Below are positions 12,457-24,660 of a DNA stretch of 64,000 bases, piece after piece (positions within the stretch are counted from its first letter, which is position 1; each line of letters opens with the position of its first letter). Made by a program: the position numbers and the translations under genes. The notes beneath the pieces were generated by a model. That model was not told the DNA's origin, made no database searches, and saw only the letters and a program-made list of their open reading frames with translations. Source of the DNA: Achromobacter sp. AONIH1 (GTDB taxonomy: Bacteria; Pseudomonadota; Gammaproteobacteria; Burkholderiales; Burkholderiaceae_B); contig NZ_CP026124.1 in the NCBI RefSeq assembly GCF_002902905.1, positions 1,426,001 to 1,490,000 of the forward strand, written 5' to 3'.

Positions 12457-12589
12457 GCTCGTCCGCCCGGCCCGTGGCGCGGGGACGGGTTATGGGCATA
12501 TACTTCGCGTTAAATATCCTTGGAATTCGTAGGGCTTTCCCGTCGGGCCGGCCCTTGGCTTCCGTCACTCACCCGGAGAGGAGTGTTTC

Positions 12590-15500
12590 ATGGTCAACAT
12601 GAACCGCCGCCAGTTCTTCAAGGTGACAGGTGCGACGCTGGCAGGCTCCAGTCTGGCATTGCTGGGGGCTGCCCCCGGCACGGCCATGGCGGAAGTCCGT
12701 CAGTACAAGCTTGCGCGCATGACCGAAACGCGCAATACCTGTCCCTACTGTTCGGTCGCCTGTGGCCTGCTGATGTACGGCCTGGGCGATGGCGCCAAGA
12801 ATGCGCGCGCCAGCATCGTCCACATCGAGGGCGATCCCGATCACCCGGTCAACCGCGGCACGCTCTGTCCCAAGGGCGCGGCCCTGATCGACTTCATCCA
12901 TAGTCCCAACCGCCTGAAGTACCCGGAATACCGGGCGCCCGGTACGGACAAGTGGGTGCGGATGTCGTGGGACGACGCCCTGACGCGCATCACCAAGCTC
13001 ATGAAGGCCGACCGCGACGCCAACTTCGTCGAGAAGACGGAAGACGGCAAGACGGTCAACCGGTGGCTGACCACCGGCATGCTGGCCGCCTCGGCAAGCA
13101 GCAACGAGGTGGGCTACATCACGCACAAGACCGTGCGCAGCATGGGGATGTTGGCATTCGATAACCAAGCCCGTGTCTGACATGGCCCGACGGTGGCAGG
13201 TCTTGCCCCGACGTTTGGCCGTGGAGCGATGACGAACCATTGGGTCGACATCAAGAACGCGGACGTAGTACTGATCATGGGCGGAAATGCCGCCGAGGCC
13301 CACCCTTGCGGGTTCAAATGGGTCACGGAAGCCAAAGCCCACAACAAGGCGAAACTCATCGTCGTGGACCCGCGCTTCACGCGCTCGGCGTCCGTGGCGG
13401 ACTTTTACGCGCCCATACGCACCGGCACCGACATCATCTTCCTGGGTGGCGTCATCAAGTACCTGTTGGATCACGACAAGATCCAGCACGAGTACGTGCG
13501 CAACTACACCGACTTTTCCTTCATCGTGCGCGAAGACTTCGCGTTCGACGCGGGCCTGTACTCGGGCTACAACGCCGAGAAACGCAGCTATGACAAGTCG
13601 AGCTGGGACTACGAGCGCGGCGACGACGGCTACGTCAAGACCGATCCCACGCTGGAACACCCGCGCTGCGTCTACCAGCTGCTGAAGAAGCACTACTCGC
13701 GCTACACCGAGGAAATGGTCGAGCGCGTCTGCGGCACGCCCAAGGACAAGTTCCTGAAGGTCTGCGACATGCTGGCCTCGACGGCGACCAAGGATCGCGC
13801 CGCCACCATCCTGTACGCGCTGGGCTGGACGCAGCACTCCATCGGCTCGCAGATCATCCGTACCGGCGCGATGGTGCAGCTGCTGCTGGGCAATATCGGC
13901 ATCGCCGGCGGCGGCATGAACGCGCTGCGCGGGCACTCGAACATCCAGGGCCTGACCGATCTGGGCCTGATGTCGAACCTGCTGCCCGGCTACATGACGC
14001 TGCCCAACGAGCCCGAGCAGGACTACGGCAAGTACATCGCCGCGCGCGCCTCCAAGCCGCTGCGTCCGAACCAGCTCAGCTATTGGCAGAACTACGCCAA
14101 GTTCCACGTCAGCCTGATGAAGGCCTGGTGGGGCAAGGCCGCCACGGCCGAGAACAACTGGGCCTTCGACTACCTGCCCAAGCTCGACAAGCTCTACGAC
14201 ATGCTGCAGGTCTACGAGCTGATGAACCAGGGCAAGATGAACGGCTACCTGGCGCAGGGCTTCAACCCGCTGGCCGCCGCGCCCAACAAGGCCAAGCTGA
14301 CCGCGGGCTTCTCCAAGCTCAAGTACCTGGTCATCATGGACCCGCTGGTCACGGAGACCTCCGAGTTCTGGCGCAACGCGGGCGAGGCCAATGACGTGGA
14401 TCCGAGCAAGATCCAGACCGAGGTCTTCCGCCTGCCGACCACCTGTTTCGCCGAGGAAGACGGCGCGCTGGTGAACTCCGGGCGCTGGCTGCAATGGCAC
14501 TGGAAGGGCGCCGAACCCCCGGGCGAGGCCAAGAGCGACATCGAGATCATGTCGCTGATCTTCACGCGCCTGCGCAAGATGTACCAGGACGAGGGCGGCA
14601 AGTACCCCGATCCCATCGTCAACCTGTCGTGGCCGTATTCCAACCCGCAGAGTCCGACGGCCGAGGAACTGGCCAAGGAATACTCGGGCAAGGCGCTGGC
14701 CGACCTGGCCGATCCCAAGGATCCGACCAAGATCACGCGCAAGGCCGGCGAGCAGCTGGCCGCCTTCGCCGAGCTGCGCGACGACGGTTCCACCGCCAGC
14801 GGCTGCTGGATCTTCGCCGGCGCCTGGAGCCCGGCGGGCAACCTGATGGCGCGTCGCGACAACAGCGATCCCACCGGCATCGGCCAGACCCTGAACTGGG
14901 CTTGGGCGTGGCCGGCCAACCGCCGCATTCTCTACAACCGCGCGTCCTGTGACGTGTCGGGCAAGCCCTTCGACCCGCGCCGCAGCCTGATTTCCTGGAA
15001 CGGCAAGAGCTGGGGCGGCGCCGACATCCCGGACTTCAAGGCCGACGAGAATCCGGAAGGCGGCATGGGGCCGTTCATCATGAACCCCGAGGGCGTGGCG
15101 CGCTTCTTCGCCCGCGCGGGCATGGCCGAGGGTCCGTTCCCCGAGCACTACGAGCCGTTCGAGACGCCGCTGGGCTACAACCCGCTGCATCCCAAGGCCA
15201 AGGGCGTGACCAGCAACCCGGCCGCGCGCGTGTTCAAGGACGACCTGGCGGCGATGGGCACGGTGGACAAGTTCCCGTTCGTGGCCACCACCTACCGCCT
15301 GACCGAGCACTTCCACTACTGGACCAAGAACGTCCGCATCAACGCGATCCTGCAGCCCGAGCAGTTCGTCGAGATCGGCGAGGCGATGGCCAAGGAATTG
15401 GGCATCGCCAACGGCCAGCGCGTGAAGGTGTCCTCGAACCGCGGCTACATCAAGGCCGTGGCGCTGGTGACCAAGCGGCTGCGCGCGCTGACGATCGAAG

Positions 15501-15658
15501 GCAAGACCGTGCACCACGTGGGCATCCCGATCCACTGGGGCTTCGTGGGCATCGCCAAGCCGGGCTTCCTGACCAACACCCTGACGCCGTTCGTGGGCGA
15601 CGGGAACTCCCAGACGCCGGAGTTCAAGTCGTTCCTGGTCAACGTCGAGAAGGCATAA
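12590..15658 (+). CDS. fdnG: formate dehydrogenase-N alpha subunit, selenoprotein (in-frame TGA = Sec197)
   Basis: One 1022-residue protein read through the TGA at 13178-13180. Sequence before the TGA (M-L-A-F-D-N-Q-A-R-V) and after it (H-G-P-T-V-A-G-L-A-P-T-F-G-R-G-A-M-T-N-H-W) is continuous in frame and matches E. coli FdnG around Sec196. A Tat signal (N-R-R-Q-F-F-K) exports the folded enzyme. C51, C54, C58 and C93 bind a [4Fe-4S] cluster, and the rest is the bis-MGD molybdenum/tungsten domain. It oxidises formate to CO2 in the periplasm and passes electrons to the FeS and cytochrome b subunits. AGGAG 7 bases upstream sets the start. Length is close to E. coli FdnG (about 1015). The gene heads the fdn operon. 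Confidence 0.95.
13178..13220 (+). promoter_or_regulatory. bacterial SECIS element with Sec UGA codon
   Basis: UGA at 13178-13180 is followed by a hairpin: C13191-G13193 pair with C13208-G13210, U13194 is bulged, G13195-A13198 pair with U13204-C13207, and the loop is GGUCU (13199-13203). Counting from the U of UGA, the bulge is U17 and the loop holds G23 and U24, the positions known to contact SelB in the E. coli fdhF/fdnG elements. GGCC at 13184-13187 and 13217-13220 could add a lower stem. It recruits SelB-GTP-Sec-tRNA for decoding. Confidence 0.93.
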
Positions 15659-15670
15659 CAGGAGACCGAC

Positions 15671-16570
15671 ATGGCTATGCAATCCCTGGACATCAAGCGG
15701 CGCTCCGCCACCACCACCCCGCCGCCCGGCGTCCGCGAGCCGTCCGTCGGCTCGGTCGCCAAGCTGATCGACGTTTCCAAGTGCATCGGCTGCAAGGCCT
15801 GCCAGGCCGCGTGCATGGAATGGAACGACCTGCGCGACGAGGTCGGCACCAACGTGGGCGTCTATGACAACCCGGCCGACCTGACCGAGCATTCCTGGAC
15901 CGTCATGCGCTTCTCCGAATACGAGAACACGCAGGGCGACCTGGAATGGCTGATCCGCAAGGACGGCTGCATGCACTGCGAGGATCCCGGCTGCCTGAAG
16001 GCCTGTCCTTCGCCGGGCGCGATCATCCAGTACAACAACGGCATCGTGGACTTCCACGAAGAGAACTGCATCGGTTGCGGCTACTGCATCACCGGCTGTC
16101 CGTTCAACGTGCCGCGCATCTCGAAGAAGGACAACAAGGCCTACAAGTGCACCCTGTGCTCCGACCGCGTCGCGGTCGGCCAGGAGCCGGCCTGCGTGAA
16201 GTCCTGTCCCACCGGCGCCATCGTGTTCGGCACCAAGGAGGACATGAAGCAGCACGCGGCCGAGCGCATCGAGGACCTGAAGTCGCGCGGCTTCGAGCAG
16301 GCCGGGCTGTACGACCCGCAGGGCGTGGGCGGCACCCACGTCATGTACGTGCTGCACCACGCCGACCAGCCGGGGCTGTACCACGGGCTGCCGAAGGATC
16401 CGCACATCAGCCCGATGGTGTCGTTGTGGAAGGGCATCGCCAAGCCTTTGGGCGTGGCGGCGATGGCGCTGACCGCGCTGGCGGGCTTCTTCCACTACGC
16501 CCGCGTCGGCCGCAACGAGGTGCACGAGGAAGACGAACGCAAGGCCGAAGAGGAGGCTCGCCATGAGTGA
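15671..16570 (+). CDS. fdxH: formate dehydrogenase beta (iron-sulfur) subunit
   Basis: 299 aa. Sixteen cysteines in four ferredoxin-type groups (38-48, 100-112, 133-143, 160-179) carry four [4Fe-4S] clusters that wire the alpha subunit to the cytochrome. One hydrophobic segment near 255-278 ([12 protein letters not shown]) anchors it in the membrane with the globular part outside, as in E. coli FdnH. There is no own Tat signal; it is normally exported with the alpha subunit. GGAG lies 7 bases before the ATG, 12 bp after fdnG, and the stop overlaps the gamma gene by 8 bp. Confidence 0.95.
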
Positions 16571-17222
16571 CAGCCAATCCCGCGACCACCGCGGCAACCG
16601 CCTGATCAAGCGCTACTCGCCCGGTGAACGCACCAACCACTGGGCCATCGCGCTGACCTTCATCCTGCTGGCGCTGTCCGGCCTGGCGCTGTTCCATCCA
16701 GCCTTCTTCTGGCTCTCGAACCTGTTCGGCGGCGGTCCCTGGACCCGCATCCTGCATCCGTTCATCGGGCTGGTGATGTTCTTCTGCTTCGTGGTCTTCG
16801 CAGGCCACATGTGGCGCAACAACATCATGACGAAGGCCGACCGCCAGTGGCTGAGCCAGCTGGACGACGTGATCGACAACCGCGAGGAAAAGCTGCCCGA
16901 GGTCGGCAAGTACAACGCCGGCCAGAAGCTGCTGTTCTACGTGCTGATCCTGTGCATGCTGGGCCTGTTCGTCAGCGGCATCGTGATCTGGCGCGAATAC
17001 TTCGCGTTCTACTTCCCGATCTGGGCCATCCGCGCCGCCTCGGTGCTGCATGCCGTTTGTGCGCTGGTGCTGATTTGCGCGATCATTGTGCATATTTACG
17101 CGGCGATCTGGGTCAAGGGTTCCTTGACGGCGATGCTGCGGGGCCATGTGACGGCAGGCTGGGCGTGGAAGCATCATCGCGCCTGGTTCCGCGAGCAGCT
17201 CAGGAAGCCCGCGGGCAAGTAG
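16563..17222 (+). CDS. fdnI: formate dehydrogenase gamma subunit (cytochrome b556)
   Basis: 219 aa with four predicted membrane helices. G-E-R-T-N-H-W near residue 21, with His26, and later H-P-F-I-G-L and H-A-V-C-A histidines fit the FdnI/FdoI di-heme cytochrome b, which takes electrons from the FeS subunit and reduces quinone. The start ATG lies inside the end of the beta gene (8-bp overlap), so translation is coupled. A strong hairpin follows the stop and separates this three-gene enzyme unit from fdhE-selAB. Confidence 0.94.
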
Positions 17223-17251
17223 CCCGTCGCCTTCCCCGACCGGACCGGTCG

Positions 17252-17299
17252 CACGGCTGCCCGTCCCCCACGCGGGGCGGGCAGCCGTGTTCGTTTTCT
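17252..17299 (+). terminator. intrinsic terminator-like hairpin between fdnI and fdhE
   Basis: CACGGCTGCCCG (17252-17263) pairs perfectly with CGGGCAGCCGTG (17278-17289). CCCC/GGGG extends the stem inside, and the T-rich tail TTCGTTTTCT follows. The tail is interrupted, so partial termination is likely. This would give more structural enzyme than accessory proteins from one transcript. Confidence 0.65.
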
Positions 17300-17310
17300 T
17301 GGAGACGCAA

Positions 17311-18246
17311 TTGCAGCGAATTCTTCCGCGCGGCGAGATCGAAGCGCTAGACCACAACCGCATTCCCCGCATCCAGCTGCCCGAGCGCGCCAGCGTGTTC
17401 GCCACGCGCGCCGCGCGCCTGCGTCATCTGGCGGCCGAAAGCCCGGTGGGCGACTACCTGCGGCTGATGGCCGACCTGGTCGACGCCCAGCACCGCGCCC
17501 TGCAGGACTGCCAGCCGCCCGGCGCCGACGAGGACCGCATATCGCTGGCCCAGGCCCATGGCATGCCGCCGCTGCAGGCGGTGGGCTGGCCGCGCGACCC
17601 GCTGTGGCGGGCCATCCTGGCGCGGCTGGTCGACGAGGTCGCCAGGACGCCCGGCACGCCCGCCGAGGCCGCCGAGGTCTGCGCCGCGCTGCGCCGCGCC
17701 GTGGACGAGGACCCCGAGGCGCTGGAGGACCTGGCCGAAGCCGTGCTGGCCGAGCAGGACCACGGCGTCGACGGCGCCGCCGCGCCCTTCGTTATGGCGG
17801 CCCTGCAGGTCTACTGGACCAGCCTGGCCAGCCGTTTCGATGAGAAGCAGCTGCCGGTGACCAGCCCCTTCGGCGTCTGTCCGGTCTGCGCCAGCCTGCC
17901 GGTGGCCAGCATCGTGCGCGTGGGCGGCCAGTTCGAGGGCTACCGCTACCTGTGCTGCAGCCTGTGCTCGACCCAGTGGCACATGGTGCGCGTGAAGTGC
18001 TCGCACTGCGAGGACGTGGAATCGGTGGCCTATCAGGCCATCGAAGGCCGCTCCGAGGCCATCAAGGCGGAGACCTGCGACCACTGCCACAGTTATCGCA
18101 AGATCTTCTACCAGGACAAGGATCTGCACGTCGAGCCGGTGGCCGACGACCTGGCCAGCCTGATGCTGGACGTGCTGGTCGGCGAGGCCGGCTACGCCCG
18201 CGCCAGCGGCAATCCCTTGCTGTGGAACGGCACGGAGGAAGAATGA
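17311..18246 (+). CDS. fdhE: formate dehydrogenase accessory protein FdhE
   Basis: 311 aa from a TTG start with GGAG six bases upstream. The alternative GTG at 17287 falls inside the terminator hairpin arm, so TTG 17311 is preferred; it gives [10 protein letters not shown]. The C-terminal half carries four C-x-x-C pairs (C-P-V-C, C-S-L-C, C-S-H-C, C-D-H-C), the rubredoxin-like zinc/iron site of FdhE. The protein acts in the cytoplasm on formate dehydrogenase before Tat export. Its stop overlaps the selA ATG (ATGA), tying enzyme maturation to selenocysteine synthesis in one operon. Confidence 0.93.
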
Positions 18247-19682
18247 GCGCCGTCCCGTCGTCCGCTGGCGCCGCCCAGGCCGCCGCCGTTTCCGACATTC
18301 CTTCGCTCGACCGGCTGTTGAACGCCGACGCGCTGCGGCCGGCGCTGGACGCCCACGGCCGCACCCAGGTGGTGGCGGCGCTGCGCCAGGATCTGGACGC
18401 GCTGCGCCAGCGCGCGCTGCAGGGCGGCCTGACGCGCGCCGAGCTGGACGCGGCGGCCGTGGCGGGCCGCGTGGACGCCGCGCTGGCCCGCGCCACGGCG
18501 CCGCGCCTGCGCGCCGTGCACAACCTGACCGGCACCGTGCTGCACACCAACCTGGGCCGCGCGCTGCTGCCCGACGAGGCCGTGGCCTCGGTGCTGCGCG
18601 CGCTGACCTCGCCGGCCAACCTGGAGTTCGACCTGGACACGGGCGGGCGCGGCGACCGCGACGATCTGGTCGAGGGCCTGCTGCGCGAGCTGACGGGAGC
18701 CGAGGCGGCTACCGTGGTCAACAACAATGCCGCCGCCGTGCTGCTGATGCTCAACGCGCTGGCGGACCGGCGCGAAGTGGTGGTGTCGCGCGGCGAGCTG
18801 GTCGAGATCGGCGGCGCCTTCCGCATCCCCGACATCATGAAGCGCGCCGGCGCCAAGCTGATCGAGGTGGGCACCACCAACCGCACCCACGCCGCCGACT
18901 ACGAGAACGCCATCGGCCCGCGCACCGCGATGCTGATGAAGGTGCATTGCAGCAACTACGCCGTCACCGGCTTCACCAAGAGCGTGAGCGTGGCCGAGGT
19001 GGCCGCCCTGGCGCATGCGCGCGGCCTGCCGGCCACGGTGGACCTGGGCAGCGGCACGCTGGTGGACCTGGCCCAGTTCGGCCTGCCGAAAGAAGATACG
19101 GTGCGCGAGACCATCGCCGCCGGCGCCGACCTGGTCACCTTCAGCGGCGACAAGCTGCTGGGCGGCCCGCAGGCCGGCCTGCTGGTGGGCCGCGCCGACC
19201 TGATCCGCAAGATCAAGAAGAACCCGCTCAAGCGCGCGCTGCGCGTGGGCAAGCTGACGCTGGCCGCGCTGGAGCCGGTGCTGGCCCTGTACCGCGCGCC
19301 GGAGTTCCTGGCCGACCGCCTGACCACGCTGCGCCTGCTGACGCGGCCGCAGCGCGAGATCCAGGCGCTGGCCGAACGGCTGCGCGGCGCGCTGGCGCAC
19401 GCGGCCGGTTCCGCTTTCGAGGTCGAGGCCGTGCCCATGTACAGCCAGATCGGCAGCGGCGCTTTGCCGGTGAACCAGCTGCCCAGCTACGGGCTGGCGG
19501 CGCGCCATCGCGGCCCGGGCCGGCCGGGGCGGCACCTGGACAGGCTGGAAGCCGCGCTGCGCGGCCTGCCGGTGCCGGTGATCGGCCGCATCGCCGACGA
19601 TGCGCTGTGGCTGGACCTGCGCTGCCTGGAAGCGCGCGACGAGGTCGCCTTCGCCGCGCAGCTGGCGGAGCCCATCCTGTGA
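18243..19682 (+). CDS. selA: L-seryl-tRNA(Sec) selenium transferase
   Basis: 479 aa, start ATG overlapping the fdhE stop. SelA is a PLP enzyme that converts Ser-tRNA(Sec) to Sec-tRNA(Sec) with selenophosphate. The N-terminal tRNA-binding helices are followed by [16 protein letters not shown] and the PLP site [14 protein letters not shown]. Length and motifs are typical (E. coli SelA about 463 aa). It is translationally coupled on both sides: fdhE ends over its start and its stop overlaps the selB GTG. Confidence 0.95.
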
Positions 19683-21646
19683 TCGTCGGCACCGCGGGCC
19701 ATATCGACCACGGCAAGACCACGCTGGTGCGCGCCCTGACGGGCGTGGACACCGACCGCCTCAAGGAAGAAAAGGCGCGCGGCATTTCCATCGAGCTGGG
19801 CTATGCCTACACGCCGCTGGACAATGGCGACGTGCTGGGCTTCATCGACGTGCCCGGCCACGAGAAGCTGGTGCACACCATGGCCGCCGGCGCCAGCGGC
19901 ATCGACTTCGGCCTGCTGGTCGTGGCGGCCGATGACGGCGTCATGCCGCAGACGCGCGAGCATCTGGCCATCCTGTCGCTGCTGGGCGTGGCGCGCGGCG
20001 CGGTGGCGCTGACCAAGGCCGACCGCGCCGACGCGGCGCAGCTGGCGGCGGCGCGCGACGGCATCGCCGCATTGACGGCGGGCACCTTCCTGGACGGCGC
20101 GCCGGTGTTCGAACTGTGCGCCGCGCAGGCTAGCGACGCCGGCACGGAACGGCTGCGGCGTCATCTGCACGAGGCGGCCCAGGCGCTGGGCCAGCGCCGC
20201 GACGACGGCCTGTTCCGGCTGGCCGTGGACCGCGTTTTCACGCTGGCGGGCCACGGCACGGTGGTGACCGGCACGGCGCACGCCGGCCTGGCGCGAGCGG
20301 GCGACGAAAGCGCCGACCTGCGGTTGATGCCGGCCGGCGAACGGCTGCGGGTGCGCGGCATCCACGCGCAGAACCGGCCCAGCGAAACCGGCGCGGCCGG
20401 ACAACGCTGCGCGCTCAACCTGGCCGGCATCGACAAGAATGCGATCGCGCGCGGCGACTGGGTGGCGGACGCGCGTTGCTTCCTGCCCTCGCGCCATGTG
20501 GATGTGGAACTGACGCTGCTGCCGGGTGGTGAGGCCGATGCCGCCGGCGCGGCCGGCACGGTGCGCGCCTGGACGCCGCTGCATGTGCATATCGGCGCGG
20601 CCCGCCATCTGGCGCATGCCGTGCCGCTGTCGGCGGAAACGCTGGCGCCGGGCCAGTCCGGCTGGGCGCAGCTGGTGTTCGACGCGCCGGTCTGCGCCAT
20701 GCCCGGCGACCGCTACATCGTGCGCAACGCGCAGGCCACGCGCACGGTGGGCGGCGGCCGCGTGCTCGATCCGAATGCGCCGGACCGCAAGCGGCGCGCG
20801 CCGGCGCGGCTGCAATGGCTGCGCGCGCTGGCGGCGATGCTGGACGGCGCGGATCTCGCGCCGCTGCTGGAACAGGCGACGCTGGGCCTGGACGAAGCCG
20901 CCTTGCAGCGCCTGACCGGCCGCGACGCGCGCGCGCTGGCGGCGCCTGCCGGGGCGCGATGGCTGGCCGGCCGCACGCCGCAGGCGCCCCGCACGCTGAT
21001 CCTGGCCGCGCAGTGGGACGCGCTGCGCGCCAAGGCCGAGCAGGCGCTGGCGGCCTTCCATCAGGCCGCGCCCGACGAGCCCGGCCCGGACGGCGCGCGG
21101 CTGCGCCGCATGGCGCTGCCGGCCATGCCGGACGCCTTGTGGCAGGTGCTGCTGGACGATCTGCAAGCGCAAGGACGGATCGCGCGCAACGGGCCCTGGC
21201 TGCATCTGCCGGGACATGCCGCGACGTTGTCCGATGATGAAACCGCGCTGGCCGGCGCGCTGCTGCCGTTGCTGGCCGAGGGCCGCTACGATCCGCCCTG
21301 GGTGCGCGACCTGGCGCGCCTGCGCGGCGAGCCGGAAGAGCGCGTGCGGCTGCTATTGCGCAAACTGCTGCGGCGTGGCGAGGTGGCGCAGGTGGTGAAG
21401 GATCTGTTCTATCACCGTGACCGCGTGCGCGAGCTGGCGACGCTGGCGCGCGGACTGGCGGCCGCGCCCGCCGGGCTCAACGCCGCGGCGTTCCGCGACG
21501 CGACCGGCCTGGGGCGCAAGCGCGCGATCCAGATCCTGGAGTTCTTCGATCGCGTCGGCTACACGCGGCGCGTGCGCGACAATCACGTGCTACGCGGCGA
21601 AAGCGCCTACGCGCTTGGGCAAGCGGCGGCAGAGCCGGTATCATAG
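19679..21646 (+). CDS. selB: selenocysteine-specific elongation factor SelB
   Basis: 655 aa from a GTG that overlaps the selA stop (GTGA). The G-domain shows [12 protein letters not shown] at the N-terminus, D-V-P-G-H-E-K and T-K-A-D, followed by EF-Tu-like beta domains and a C-terminal half of winged helices that bind the SECIS hairpin. It delivers Sec-tRNA to the ribosome at the fdnG UGA. The starting residues M-I-V-G-T match the family, so no upstream extension is needed. selC begins 12 bp after its stop, probably on the same transcript. Confidence 0.95.
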
Positions 21647-21658
21647 GCGGGCCTTCGC

Positions 21659-21754
21659 GGAAGGCATCCGTGCCCGGCGGCACGGCCGGGCTTCAAACCC
21701 GGTTGGGGGCGTCAGACGTTCCCAGGTAGGTTCGACTCCTGCTGCCTTCCGCCA
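21659..21754 (+). tRNA. selC: tRNA-Sec (anticodon TCA)
   Basis: 96 nt including an encoded CCA at 21752-21754. An 8-bp acceptor stem pairs GGAAGGCA with TGCCTTCC. The anticodon arm CGGGCTTCAAACCCG places TCA in the loop, a long variable arm follows, and the T-loop is GGTTCGACTCC. These are the traits of bacterial selC, which is decoded by SelB. It sits directly after selB and 32 bp from the end of the convergent thioredoxin-like gene. Confidence 0.96.
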
Positions 21755-21786: not shown

Positions 21787-22326
21787 TCAGGCCCGCAGCA
21801 TGCGCGTGACGACGCCGCTGACGCGGTCGGCCTTCCAGTCCAGTTCGCCCAGATGCCATTGGCGCGCCGCGCCGCCTCGGTCGATCAGGTAGTTGGCCGG
21901 CAGACCCACCGCATTCCATGCCTTGGCCGCCGCGCTGTTGCGGTCGTGCAGCACCGTGCCGGCGACCGGCCATTTGGCGAGAAAGGTGCTGACCTTCGCC
22001 AGCGACTCGCCCACGTTCACCGCGACCAGCCGCAGACCTTCCTCGCGGTGCCGCCGCGCCATCGCCGACATCAGCGGGATTTCGTCGCGGCAGGGATCGC
22101 ACCAGGTGGCCCAGAAGCTCAGCATCACGACACTGCCGCGCCAGGCCGAAAGCTTGTGTTCGCGGCCGGACAGGTCGGGCAGGATCAGCGGCGGCGTGGG
22201 CGAGGTCCAGGCCGCCCAGTCCGGGCCGGTGGCGGACTTGAGCGCGTCGTCCGAGGCGGCGCGCGCCGCCAGCGGCAGCGCGGCCAGCGCGAGGCCCGAT
22301 TGCAGGAAGTGGCGGCGGCTGAACAA
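21787..22326 (-). CDS. TlpA/ResA-type thioredoxin-like protein
   Basis: 179 aa. The N-terminus S-R-R-H-F-L-Q-S-G-L-A-L with an Ala signal region looks like a Tat or Sec signal, so the protein is periplasmic. F-W-A-T-W-C-D-P-C-R-D-E supplies the C-x-x-C redox site; the cis-Pro region reads G-L-P-A-N-Y-L-I-D. It probably reduces or isomerises disulfides in exported proteins. It lies on the opposite strand between selC and selD, 19 bp after the transglutaminase-like gene and likely in an operon with it. A link to selenoprotein folding is possible but not shown. Confidence 0.87.
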   Translation of the reverse strand: MFSRRHFLQSGLALAALPLAARAASDDALKSATGPDWAAWTSPTPPLILPDLSGREHKLSAWRGSVVMLSFWATWCDPCRDEIPLMSAMARRHREEGLRLVAVNVGESLAKVSTFLAKWPVAGTVLHDRNSAAAKAWNAVGLPANYLIDRGGAARQWHLGELDWKADRVSGVVTRMLRA

Positions 22327-22345: not shown

Positions 22346-23461
22346 TCAGGCCGGGAGCTGGCGCGCCGTCAGGCGGTAGCGGAAGCTGTCGGGGTCCAGG
22401 CTGTCCATGCGCCCGGCGGCTGTCTCGCCATTGGGATACATCAGGAAAGGAACCGGGCCGAGGCCGGAGCCGGGCAAGGCCACGTCGTGGCCGTGGTTGA
22501 AGGCCACCCAGTTCATCTCCCAGGCGCCGAACAGCATCACGCGCGCCGCGCGCACCTGCGGATTGTTGATCGGCAATTCGCCCGGCGGCTCTTCCAGCAT
22601 CACCTTGCGCACGTCGGCCGGGTCGACCGGCACCCAGCCGTGGCTGGCGGCGTAGAACTCGGCGCGGCAGTGCTGGGCGCGGGTGACGTCGCCGGCCTTG
22701 CCCAGGCTTCTGTAGCCCAGTTGCGAATCGGCCACGCGCAGCCCGTAGGCGTCGCGCGCGGGGATGCCTGCGGCGCGCGCCAGCGCCACGAACAGCGCAT
22801 TGATGTCGGCGCACTTGCCGTTCAGGTCATTGGCCGTGAGCATGTAGCGCACGTCGCCCACGCCGCAGCCTCGGGTGGAGGCCGTGCGGCAGGTGTTCTC
22901 GACCACCCATTCGTAGATCGCGCGCGCCCGCGCCAGATCGCCGCTGTGGCCGCGCGTGATGCGGTCGGCGGTGGCCTTGACGATGCCGTCGGTGGGCAGC
23001 AGATCGGTGGGCTTGAGGTATTCACGCAGCGTCGCCGCGCTTTCGGGCCGGAAGTTGGCGGGCGCGGGCTGGTCCAGGTCGACGCGGCGGTTGCGCGTCT
23101 GGAAGCGGCTGATGACCGTGATCCTGCGTATGTCCGGGTTTTCAGGCCATTGCGCGGCCAGCATGCGCACGCCATAGCCGGGGGCCTGCGCCAGGCTGGC
23201 GGTGCCGCCGCCCTCGATGCGCCAGACGGTCTGCGCGCCGCGCTGGTAGTCGGTGTCGGCGCTGTCGGGCATGGGAATCCAGAGGCGGGCCTGGGCCCCG
23301 GGATCTTCGATGCTGATGTCGGCGGTCAGCTCGAAGGCGCGCCAGTCGGCGGAGACGGTGGCGGTGCGCTCCTGCGCCAGCGCGGAGCCGGCGAGCGTCG
23401 CGCCGGCGGCGCACAGGGCGCCCGAGGCGCCGGTGATACGGAGAAAGTCGCGGCGGTCCAT
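22346..23461 (-). CDS. transglutaminase-like cysteine peptidase domain protein, exported
   Basis: 371 aa from ATG 23461 with GAGGG upstream; a GTG at 23476 would add 5 residues. M-D-R-R-D-F-L-R-I-T-G is a clear Tat-type signal. The transglutaminase-like core has Cys in N-G-K-C-A-D-I-N-A-L-F, His in A-A-S-H-G-W-V-P-V and Asp in D-P-A-D, the catalytic triad of the superfamily. Such bacterial proteins are mostly periplasmic peptidases of unknown substrate. It is co-oriented with the downstream TlpA-like gene. Confidence 0.85.
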   Translation of the reverse strand: MDRRDFLRITGASGALCAAGATLAGSALAQERTATVSADWRAFELTADISIEDPGAQARLWIPMPDSADTDYQRGAQTVWRIEGGGTASLAQAPGYGVRMLAAQWPENPDIRRITVISRFQTRNRRVDLDQPAPANFRPESAATLREYLKPTDLLPTDGIVKATADRITRGHSGDLARARAIYEWVVENTCRTASTRGCGVGDVRYMLTANDLNGKCADINALFVALARAAGIPARDAYGLRVADSQLGYRSLGKAGDVTRAQHCRAEFYAASHGWVPVDPADVRKVMLEEPPGELPINNPQVRAARVMLFGAWEMNWVAFNHGHDVALPGSGLGPVPFLMYPNGETAAGRMDSLDPDSFRYRLTARQLPA

Positions 23462-23598
23462 ATAGCCCTCACGCACGGTGAAGTGTGGCTGTCGGTGCGC
23501 CCTGGCGGGCGGCCGTCCCTTGCTGCCTGCTGCCTGGCCATGATAGGCCCATCATGGGCGCGGTGCTATCCTTTTTCGGTCTACATATGGAGAACCCT

Positions 23599-24660
23599 AT
23601 GAACCAGAATGCAGCGGCCCCGGCCGTGCCGCGCCTGACCTCGCTGTCGCATGGCGGCGGCTGTGGCTGCAAGATCGCGCCGGGCGTGCTGTCCGAGCTG
23701 CTGGCCCGTTTCGGTCCGGCGGCCAGCTACCCGAACCTGATGGTGGGCACCGAGACCGCGGACGATGCCGCGGTCTACAAGCTCAACGACGAGCAGGCGC
23801 TGATCGCCACCACCGATTTCTTCATGCCCATCGTCGACGATCCCTACGACTTCGGCCGCATCGCCGCGACCAACGCGCTCTCGGACGTCTATGCCATGGG
23901 CGGCACGCCCATCATGGCGCTGGCCATCGTCGGCATGCCGATCAACGTGCTGCCGCACAGCGTCATCGCCGACATCCTGCGCGGCGGCGAATCGGTCTGC
24001 GCCGAGGCGGGCATTCCGGTGGCCGGCGGCCACAGCATCGATTCGGTCGAGCCCATCTATGGTCTGGCGGCAATGGGGCTGGTGCATCCCGGCCGCGTCA
24101 AGCGCAATGCCGATGCGCGCGCCGGCGACGTGCTGATCCTGGGCAAGGCGCTGGGCGTGGGCATCCTGTCCGCCGCGCTGAAGAAAAACCGGCTGGACGA
24201 GGCCGGCTACCGCGTCATGATCGACACAACCACGCGGCTCAACCGGCCCGGCGCCGCGTTGGCGGCGATGGAGGGTGTGCACGCCATCACCGACGTGACC
24301 GGGTTCGGCCTGCTCGGCCACGCGCTGGAAATGGCGCGCGGCGCGGGCCTGACCGCTCATCTGCGGCGCGCTGCGCTGCCCTGGCTGCCGGGCGTGCAGG
24401 CCTACGCGGCCGATGGCGTGATCACCGGCGCGTCGGGCCGCAACTGGGCGTCCTATGGCGCTTCCGTGAAGCTGGCGGATGACGTGACGGCTGTGGAACG
24501 CGCGCTGTTGACCGATCCGCAGACCTCGGGCGGTCTGCTGGTGGCTTGCGCGCCGGAAGCGGCCCAGGCGGTGCTGGACCTGTTCCGCAGCCAGGGCTTC
24601 GACCAGGCGGCCGTGGTTGGCGAGATGGGCGCGGGCGCGCCCGAGGTGCGGGTCGGCTGA
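23599..24660 (+). CDS. selD: selenophosphate synthase (selenide, water dikinase)
   Basis: 353 aa from ATG 23599, which has GGAG six bases upstream. Makes selenophosphate from selenide and ATP for SelA. The N-terminal loop S-H-G-G-G-C-G-C-K carries Cys22, equivalent to the catalytic Cys17 of E. coli, so here SelD is itself not a selenoprotein. [14 protein letters not shown] and G-G-H-S-I-D mark the ATP/Mg site. It completes the Sec pathway begun by selA, selB and selC 2 kb upstream but is separated from them by two genes on the other strand, so it needs its own promoter. Confidence 0.95.

Follow-up and report, generated by a model that had tools for sequence, protein, structure and literature searches.

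A predicted selenocysteine codon and its SECIS element in the formate dehydrogenase gene fdoG of Achromobacter sp. AONIH1

The window analyzed here is a 64,000-nucleotide stretch of DNA (positions 1426001 to 1490000) from the single-contig, 6.65 Mb genome of Achromobacter sp. AONIH1, whose completeness is given as 100. On its forward strand, a frame that opens with the ATG at 12590, 3′ of a GGAG-type ribosome site, can be read for 1,022 residues (Table 1); the nearest in-frame stop upstream of this start lies at 12530. As the initial annotation had noted, a plain gene call yields two pieces, which the mechanical list of open reading frames (ORFs) gives as 12590-13180 (196 amino acids) and 13193-15658 (821 amino acids). 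The frame is nonetheless unbroken across the junction, also as claimed there: the TGA of codon 197 is its single interruption before the TAA of codon 1023, and these two are its sole stops.

Table 1. Features of the fdoG-sel region, in window coordinates
Feature	Coordinates	Strand	Evidence
fdoG/fdnG, formate dehydrogenase-N/O alpha subunit, predicted 1022-aa selenoprotein	12590..15658	+	ORF list, 1KQF alignment, TIGR01553
SECIS element (Rfam SECIS_3, RF01989)	13175..13233	+	U17 = 13194, loop GGUCU = 13199-13203, G23-U24 = 13200-13201
In-frame TGA, codon 197, predicted selenocysteine	13178..13180	+	Frame, alignment, relatives' codons
fdoH, iron-sulfur beta subunit, C-terminal membrane helix	15671..16570	+	TIGR01582, PF09163
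fdoI, cytochrome b gamma subunit	16563..17222	+	TIGR01583
fdhE, formate dehydrogenase accessory protein	17287..18246	+	TIGR01562
selA, L-seryl-tRNA(Sec) selenium transferase	18243..19682	+	TIGR00474
selB, selenocysteine-specific elongation factor, GTG start	19679..21646	+	TIGR00475
selC, tRNA-Sec, anticodon TCA	21659..21754	+	RF01852, 73.7 bits
selD, selenide, water dikinase, Cys form, no internal stop	23599..24660	+	TIGR00476

The genes fdoH, fdoI, fdhE, selA, selB, the tRNA-Sec gene and selD all lie within about 9 kb downstream of fdoG. The claim that the full selenocysteine (Sec) machinery is encoded next door thus holds for selA, selB and the tRNA-Sec gene, which adjoin, but has to be loosened for selD, which is close by with two opposite-strand genes intervening. 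One of the two (21787-22326, minus strand) encodes a thiol-disulfide oxidoreductase that resembles ResA/TlpA, has a WCDPC motif and scores below curated cut-offs; the other (22346-23476, minus strand) encodes a 376-amino-acid protein that has no NCBIfam match and that, judged by its motifs, we take to be transglutaminase-like. The GCGCK motif of SelD presumably holds the active-site Cys. In the C-terminal winged helix of SelB, residues from about 600 to 640 are nearly identical to those of the SelB in PDB 5LZB, which we take to be the E. coli protein.

The protein encoded by the readthrough frame belongs to TIGR01553 (1511.1 bits against a cut-off of 814.2, residues 4-1021) and aligns with E. 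coli formate dehydrogenase-N (FDH-N; PDB 1KQF) across residues 3-1022 with 1,579 bits. In this alignment, the X of the 1KQF sequence, which we take to stand for selenocysteine, falls on codon 197, and the flanking residues R-V-[U]-H-G-P(-T) agree, so that the comparison with FdnG suggested in the initial annotation came out positive. Cysteines 51, 54, 58 and 93 are present, with CPKG at 93 and RV[U]HGPT from 195; we take the four cysteines to be Fe4S4 ligands, and the lysine of CPKG and the Sec-His motif to have active-site roles. The molybdopterin domain (PF00384) spans residues 108-591, and the start of the protein carries RRQFFK, presumably a motif of the twin-arginine type. The nearest named relatives are Achromobacter records, at 93 to 96% identity. 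The likeness to E. coli FdnG/FdoG is one of full-length homology, with Sec at the same site and the same four Fe4S4 cysteines. In E. coli, too, the fdoG-type gene contains a single in-frame TGA; it is annotated as one CDS, and fdoH comes next. Unlike in E. coli, fdhE and the sel genes form a single cluster downstream in the window.

An Infernal search of the 64 kb window, the check that the initial annotation had proposed, finds the SECIS_3 model immediately around the TGA (81.6 bits, cut-off 63, E = 9.1e−18). The match covers positions 1-59 of the 59 in the Rfam family, with no notable difference from it, and is the sole match that the 6.65 Mb genome gives at E = 0.001, with 150 of 3,835 first-look candidates scored. 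Numbering from the U of UGA as 1, the minimum-energy fold has U17 bulged, a 4-bp apical stem (18-21/27-30) and loop bases 22-26, GGUCU, that hold G23-U24. U17 and G23 have been described as SelB-binding sites, and U17, G23 and U24 as fixed bases, in passages of the review PMC8659212. The initial annotation had called these exactly the E. coli SelB contacts. The three bases do stand at the same distances, but the loop itself is not that of the E. coli fdoG-type gene, where the same pairing gives AGUCU; 48 of the 59 SECIS bases are identical between the two genes, and in the minimum-energy fold of the E. coli 46-mer (−12.7 kcal/mol) the lower stem differs and the apical stem is longer by one pair. 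The GGUCU loop is, we believe, identical to that of E. coli fdhF.

We considered and rejected fold energy as proof of a SECIS element. The hairpin is more stable than most shuffled sequences (z = −2.18; 5 of 200 dinucleotide shuffles are equally stable), but 391 of 2,000 synonymous recodings are as stable. Because GC-rich recodings so often reach the same energy, fold energy alone is weak evidence. An apical hairpin with U17, G23 and U24 in place is kept by 12 of the 2,000 recodings.

The identity of codon 197 could be read in 131 sequences, namely 130 related loci and the window; seven further loci, which are other FDH-like places of the window's genome, were unaligned at this codon at the cut-off used. 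TGA occupies the codon in 117 of the 131, TGT in 10 and TGC in four. For the motif count, the separately fetched copy of the window's own gene was left out, giving 116 TGA sequences (the window and 115 loci). U17, G23, U24 and the four apical pairs occur together in 116/116 of these and in 0/14 of the Cys-codon relatives. Every one of the 14 Cys relatives also has U at position 17, so U17 alone does not discriminate; G23 does, position 23 being C in 14/14.

The 116 sequences include the same genomes fetched twice, and their 59-base stretch has 40 distinct forms. Over these forms, the 16 pairs of the element are formed in 91.9% of cells, compared with 27 to 46% when one strand of the pairing is slid by 1 to 3 bases and 59.4% for the Cys forms on the same scheme, although several of the 16 pairs break in some relatives. 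The apical hairpin is part of the minimum-energy fold in 40/40 TGA forms versus 1/14 Cys forms. Both-side changes occur at four pairs (8-42, 18-30, 19-29 and 21-27); because the controls come close (the slid versions have 0 to 2 such pairs, the Cys set 3), we regard this count as modest support. With cmscan at the curated cut-off, SECIS_3 was found in 6/6 more distant TGA-bearing relatives and in none of the 14 Cys relatives.

Conservation can also be seen at the codon level. Codons ending in A or T are uncommon in fdoG, where third-position GC is 91%. In comparisons with 75 relatives, those at 198-211 are retained in 83% of cases versus 34% for 80 others in the gene; codon 198, which the apical part does not include, is retained in 32% only. 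The windows over the SECIS element rank first among 1,007 fifteen-codon windows for codon conservation, by a moderate margin (0.919 versus a maximum of 0.849 and a mean of 0.636 outside codons 190-220).

In the family, 132 of 268 genomes match FdoG at E = 1e−200 or better. Of 147 matching rows, 140 span codon 197 (the other seven were left out of the count), and these comprise 126 with one internal TGA and 14 without; the position of the TGA itself was read in the fetched loci only. All 14 rows without it have TGT or TGC exactly at codon 197. These Cys-type alpha subunits belong to the same protein family and carry Cys at the Sec site, with neither a SECIS element at the Rfam cut-off nor the full apical motif. 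Homologues of this kind in close relatives, with a Cys codon and a lost hairpin, had been named in the initial annotation as what would count against it; the family does contain such Cys forms, but they are 57 to 61% identical to the window's protein. Eight of the 14 genomes also have a TGA copy nearer to the window's gene (at 82 to 84% in G054, G057, G058, G059 and G061, and at 74 to 81% in G165, G166 and G173), which makes their Cys form a second copy. In the remaining six, the Cys form alone was found at E = 1e−200.

Within the window's own genome, the other FDH-like genes have Cys at the Sec site in all four that align (L002, L003, L004 and L006). Three pairs of fetched loci (L002/L008, L003/L005 and L006/L007) gave identical rows, and a weak fifth match at 5135999-5136700 was left out. 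The search for a second selenoprotein consisted of the genome-wide SECIS_3 scan and this inspection of FDH-like genes, and a selenoprotein gene with an unlike SECIS element would escape it.

The gene order of the window recurs in its relatives. Among 80 named loci, 10 with less than 6.5 kb of downstream sequence were left out and 70 were counted. Both fdoH and fdoI lie downstream of fdoG in 69/70. The longer series of fdoH, fdoI, fdhE, selA and selB downstream on the same strand (at 40% identity and 70% coverage), together with a tRNA-Sec gene in the locus, is found in 61/70; a looser count that admits any match at E = 1e−15 in the locus gives 62/70 with the full set, tRNA-Sec included; we rely on the stricter of the two. 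By the strict count, selD is present in 18/70. The exceptions number nine (L065, L070, L072, L103, L105, L108, L110, L112 and L114). A whole-genome search for selB in seven of them found it in 7/7; in the genome of L072, it consists of two overlapping pieces and is possibly broken. L110 misses fdhE alone, at the stricter cut-off. ARAGORN and Rfam searches confined to the loci found no tRNA-Sec in L065, L070, L108, L112 and L114. At L103, from Oligella urethralis, fdhE-selA-selB-selC-selD come directly after fdoG (12963-17382); fdoH and fdoI were not found in this locus, and another contig carries an fdoH of 74% identity.

In the genus, fdoG is present in 40 of 43 genomes, each time with one internal TGA, which is at codon 197 in the 30 genus sequences that were fetched (own copy included). 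Matches to selB at E = 1e−40 and tRNA-Sec matches above 70 bits each occur in 39/43 genomes, and selD occurs in 42/43. Three genomes of completeness 100 (G002, G020 and G023) have no fdoG, no selB and no strong tRNA-Sec, and keep selD. The 78% complete genome G027 has fdoG and is without selB, a strong tRNA-Sec and selD. The co-occurrence across the genus may rest on few independent losses. We suggest that selU, a second selenium user present in the window's genome, the one genome searched for it, could explain why selD outlives the Sec trait; the retention of selD in G002, G020 and G023 is consistent with its serving selU.

Weaker matches to the tRNA-Sec model (37 to 54 bits) are scattered across the genus and are probably other tRNAs; among the matches listed, none exceeds 45.1 bits in the genomes without selB. 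In the window's genome, a second tRNA (G000:C1, 2569990-2570075) scores 50.3 bits against a cut-off of 47, similar tRNAs at 45.1 bits are found in genomes without selB, and it is probably a tRNA-Ser or another long-arm tRNA. In several genus genomes (G041, G042 and G005 among them) and in G271, G272 and G274, the selB match contains one internal TAA, TAG or TGA, which in most probably reflects alignment past the true stop near the C terminus.

The frame, the homology and the SECIS element all agree that fdoG belongs together as one 1,022-amino-acid selenoprotein, as the initial annotation had it. The open frame, the homology, the anatomy and conservation of the SECIS element, the machinery genes and their co-occurrence are all directly observed. 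On this sequence evidence, TGA 197 is almost certainly read as selenocysteine via the SECIS element and SelB, and the two-piece gene call should therefore be one gene. As catalytic alpha subunit, the product would belong to a respiratory formate dehydrogenase of the membrane-bound FdoGHI/FdnGHI type. SelB-GTP carrying Sec-tRNA(Sec) would bind the SECIS hairpin right after UGA 197 and deliver selenocysteine where translation would otherwise stop, and the neighboring SelA, SelB, tRNA-Sec and SelD would supply the machinery. The selenol of Sec197 would serve as a ligand to the molybdenum in the bis-MGD cofactor, with formate oxidation at the periplasmic face and electron transfer via FdoH and FdoI to quinone. 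For incorporation, metal ligation, localization and electron route alike, we assume that the gene resembles its E. coli family.

Other explanations for the interrupted frame can be weighed against the same observations. Near-cognate readthrough of UGA is possible in principle, and the codon could be read without selenium, by suppression with Trp or Cys or under a changed code. Nothing specific favors such a route, and it has to contend with a full Sec machinery beside the gene, a SECIS element with the SelB contacts, and the absence of selB and a strong tRNA-Sec from the three genus genomes that have no fdoG. A changed code is further contradicted by selA in the window itself, which ends at TGA, so that TGA serves as an ordinary stop here. 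We therefore consider decoding without selenium extremely unlikely. Still less credible is a pair of separate proteins, a 196-residue N-terminal piece and an 821-residue piece starting from the GTG at 13193: both frames exist, and a shortage of selenium should let some ribosomes terminate at the UGA, but such a split cuts through the molybdopterin domain and leaves the large piece with neither Fe4S4 cysteines nor export signal, and relatives align continuously across the TGA.

The least probable reading is that of a pseudogene or sequencing error, in which a Cys codon was mutated or misread to TGA and the gene was broken. It is true that the plain ORF stops at the TGA and that 14 relatives have Cys at this site. 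Against such an accident, however, one internal TGA recurs in 40/40 genus genomes with the gene and in 126/140 spanning family matches, the frame is otherwise open, and the SECIS element is conserved. It is very unlikely that stopping at codon 197 under selenium shortage acts as a selenium-supply switch in which the export-tagged 196-residue fragment or a stalled SelB complex is functional, and nothing points to it. Selenocysteine at codon 197 remains our reading of the gene.

In kind, such a gene is known. The cited parts of Zhang et al. (PMC1794560) described in 2006 fdhA as the sole selenoprotein gene beside selA-selB-selC in Betaproteobacteria, and with it the general rule of a Sec trait linked to a single gene. 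The selA-selB-selC and fdhA arrangement given there for Alpha- and Betaproteobacteria and Pseudomonadales has the same gene set and neighborhood as the window, which adds a further species, and the one SECIS_3 gene found in the window's genome is a further likeness. Formate dehydrogenase alpha (TIGR01553, UHxP) comes first among the experimentally verified selenoproteins listed in the review PMC13188914, which, as far as the cited passages go, also calls it the most widely distributed bacterial selenoprotein family. Excerpts of two other papers count 1,276 such selenoproteins in 822 organisms (PMC5029168) and assign about 48% of predicted selenoproteins to the FDH family (PMC1242214). Among open-licence PMC papers, searched by title and the start of the abstract, we found none on an Achromobacter selenocysteine formate dehydrogenase. 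The selenocysteine reading of fdoG is correct, already known in kind and ordinary. The genus offers a small example of a selenocysteine trait traveling with a single gene, and the annotation of the locus is mended from two fragments to a single 1,022-residue selenoprotein.

Antisense to fdoG-fdoH, the minus strand holds a 1,346-amino-acid ORF (window positions 12569-16609), probably a spurious frame produced by GC-rich codon usage.
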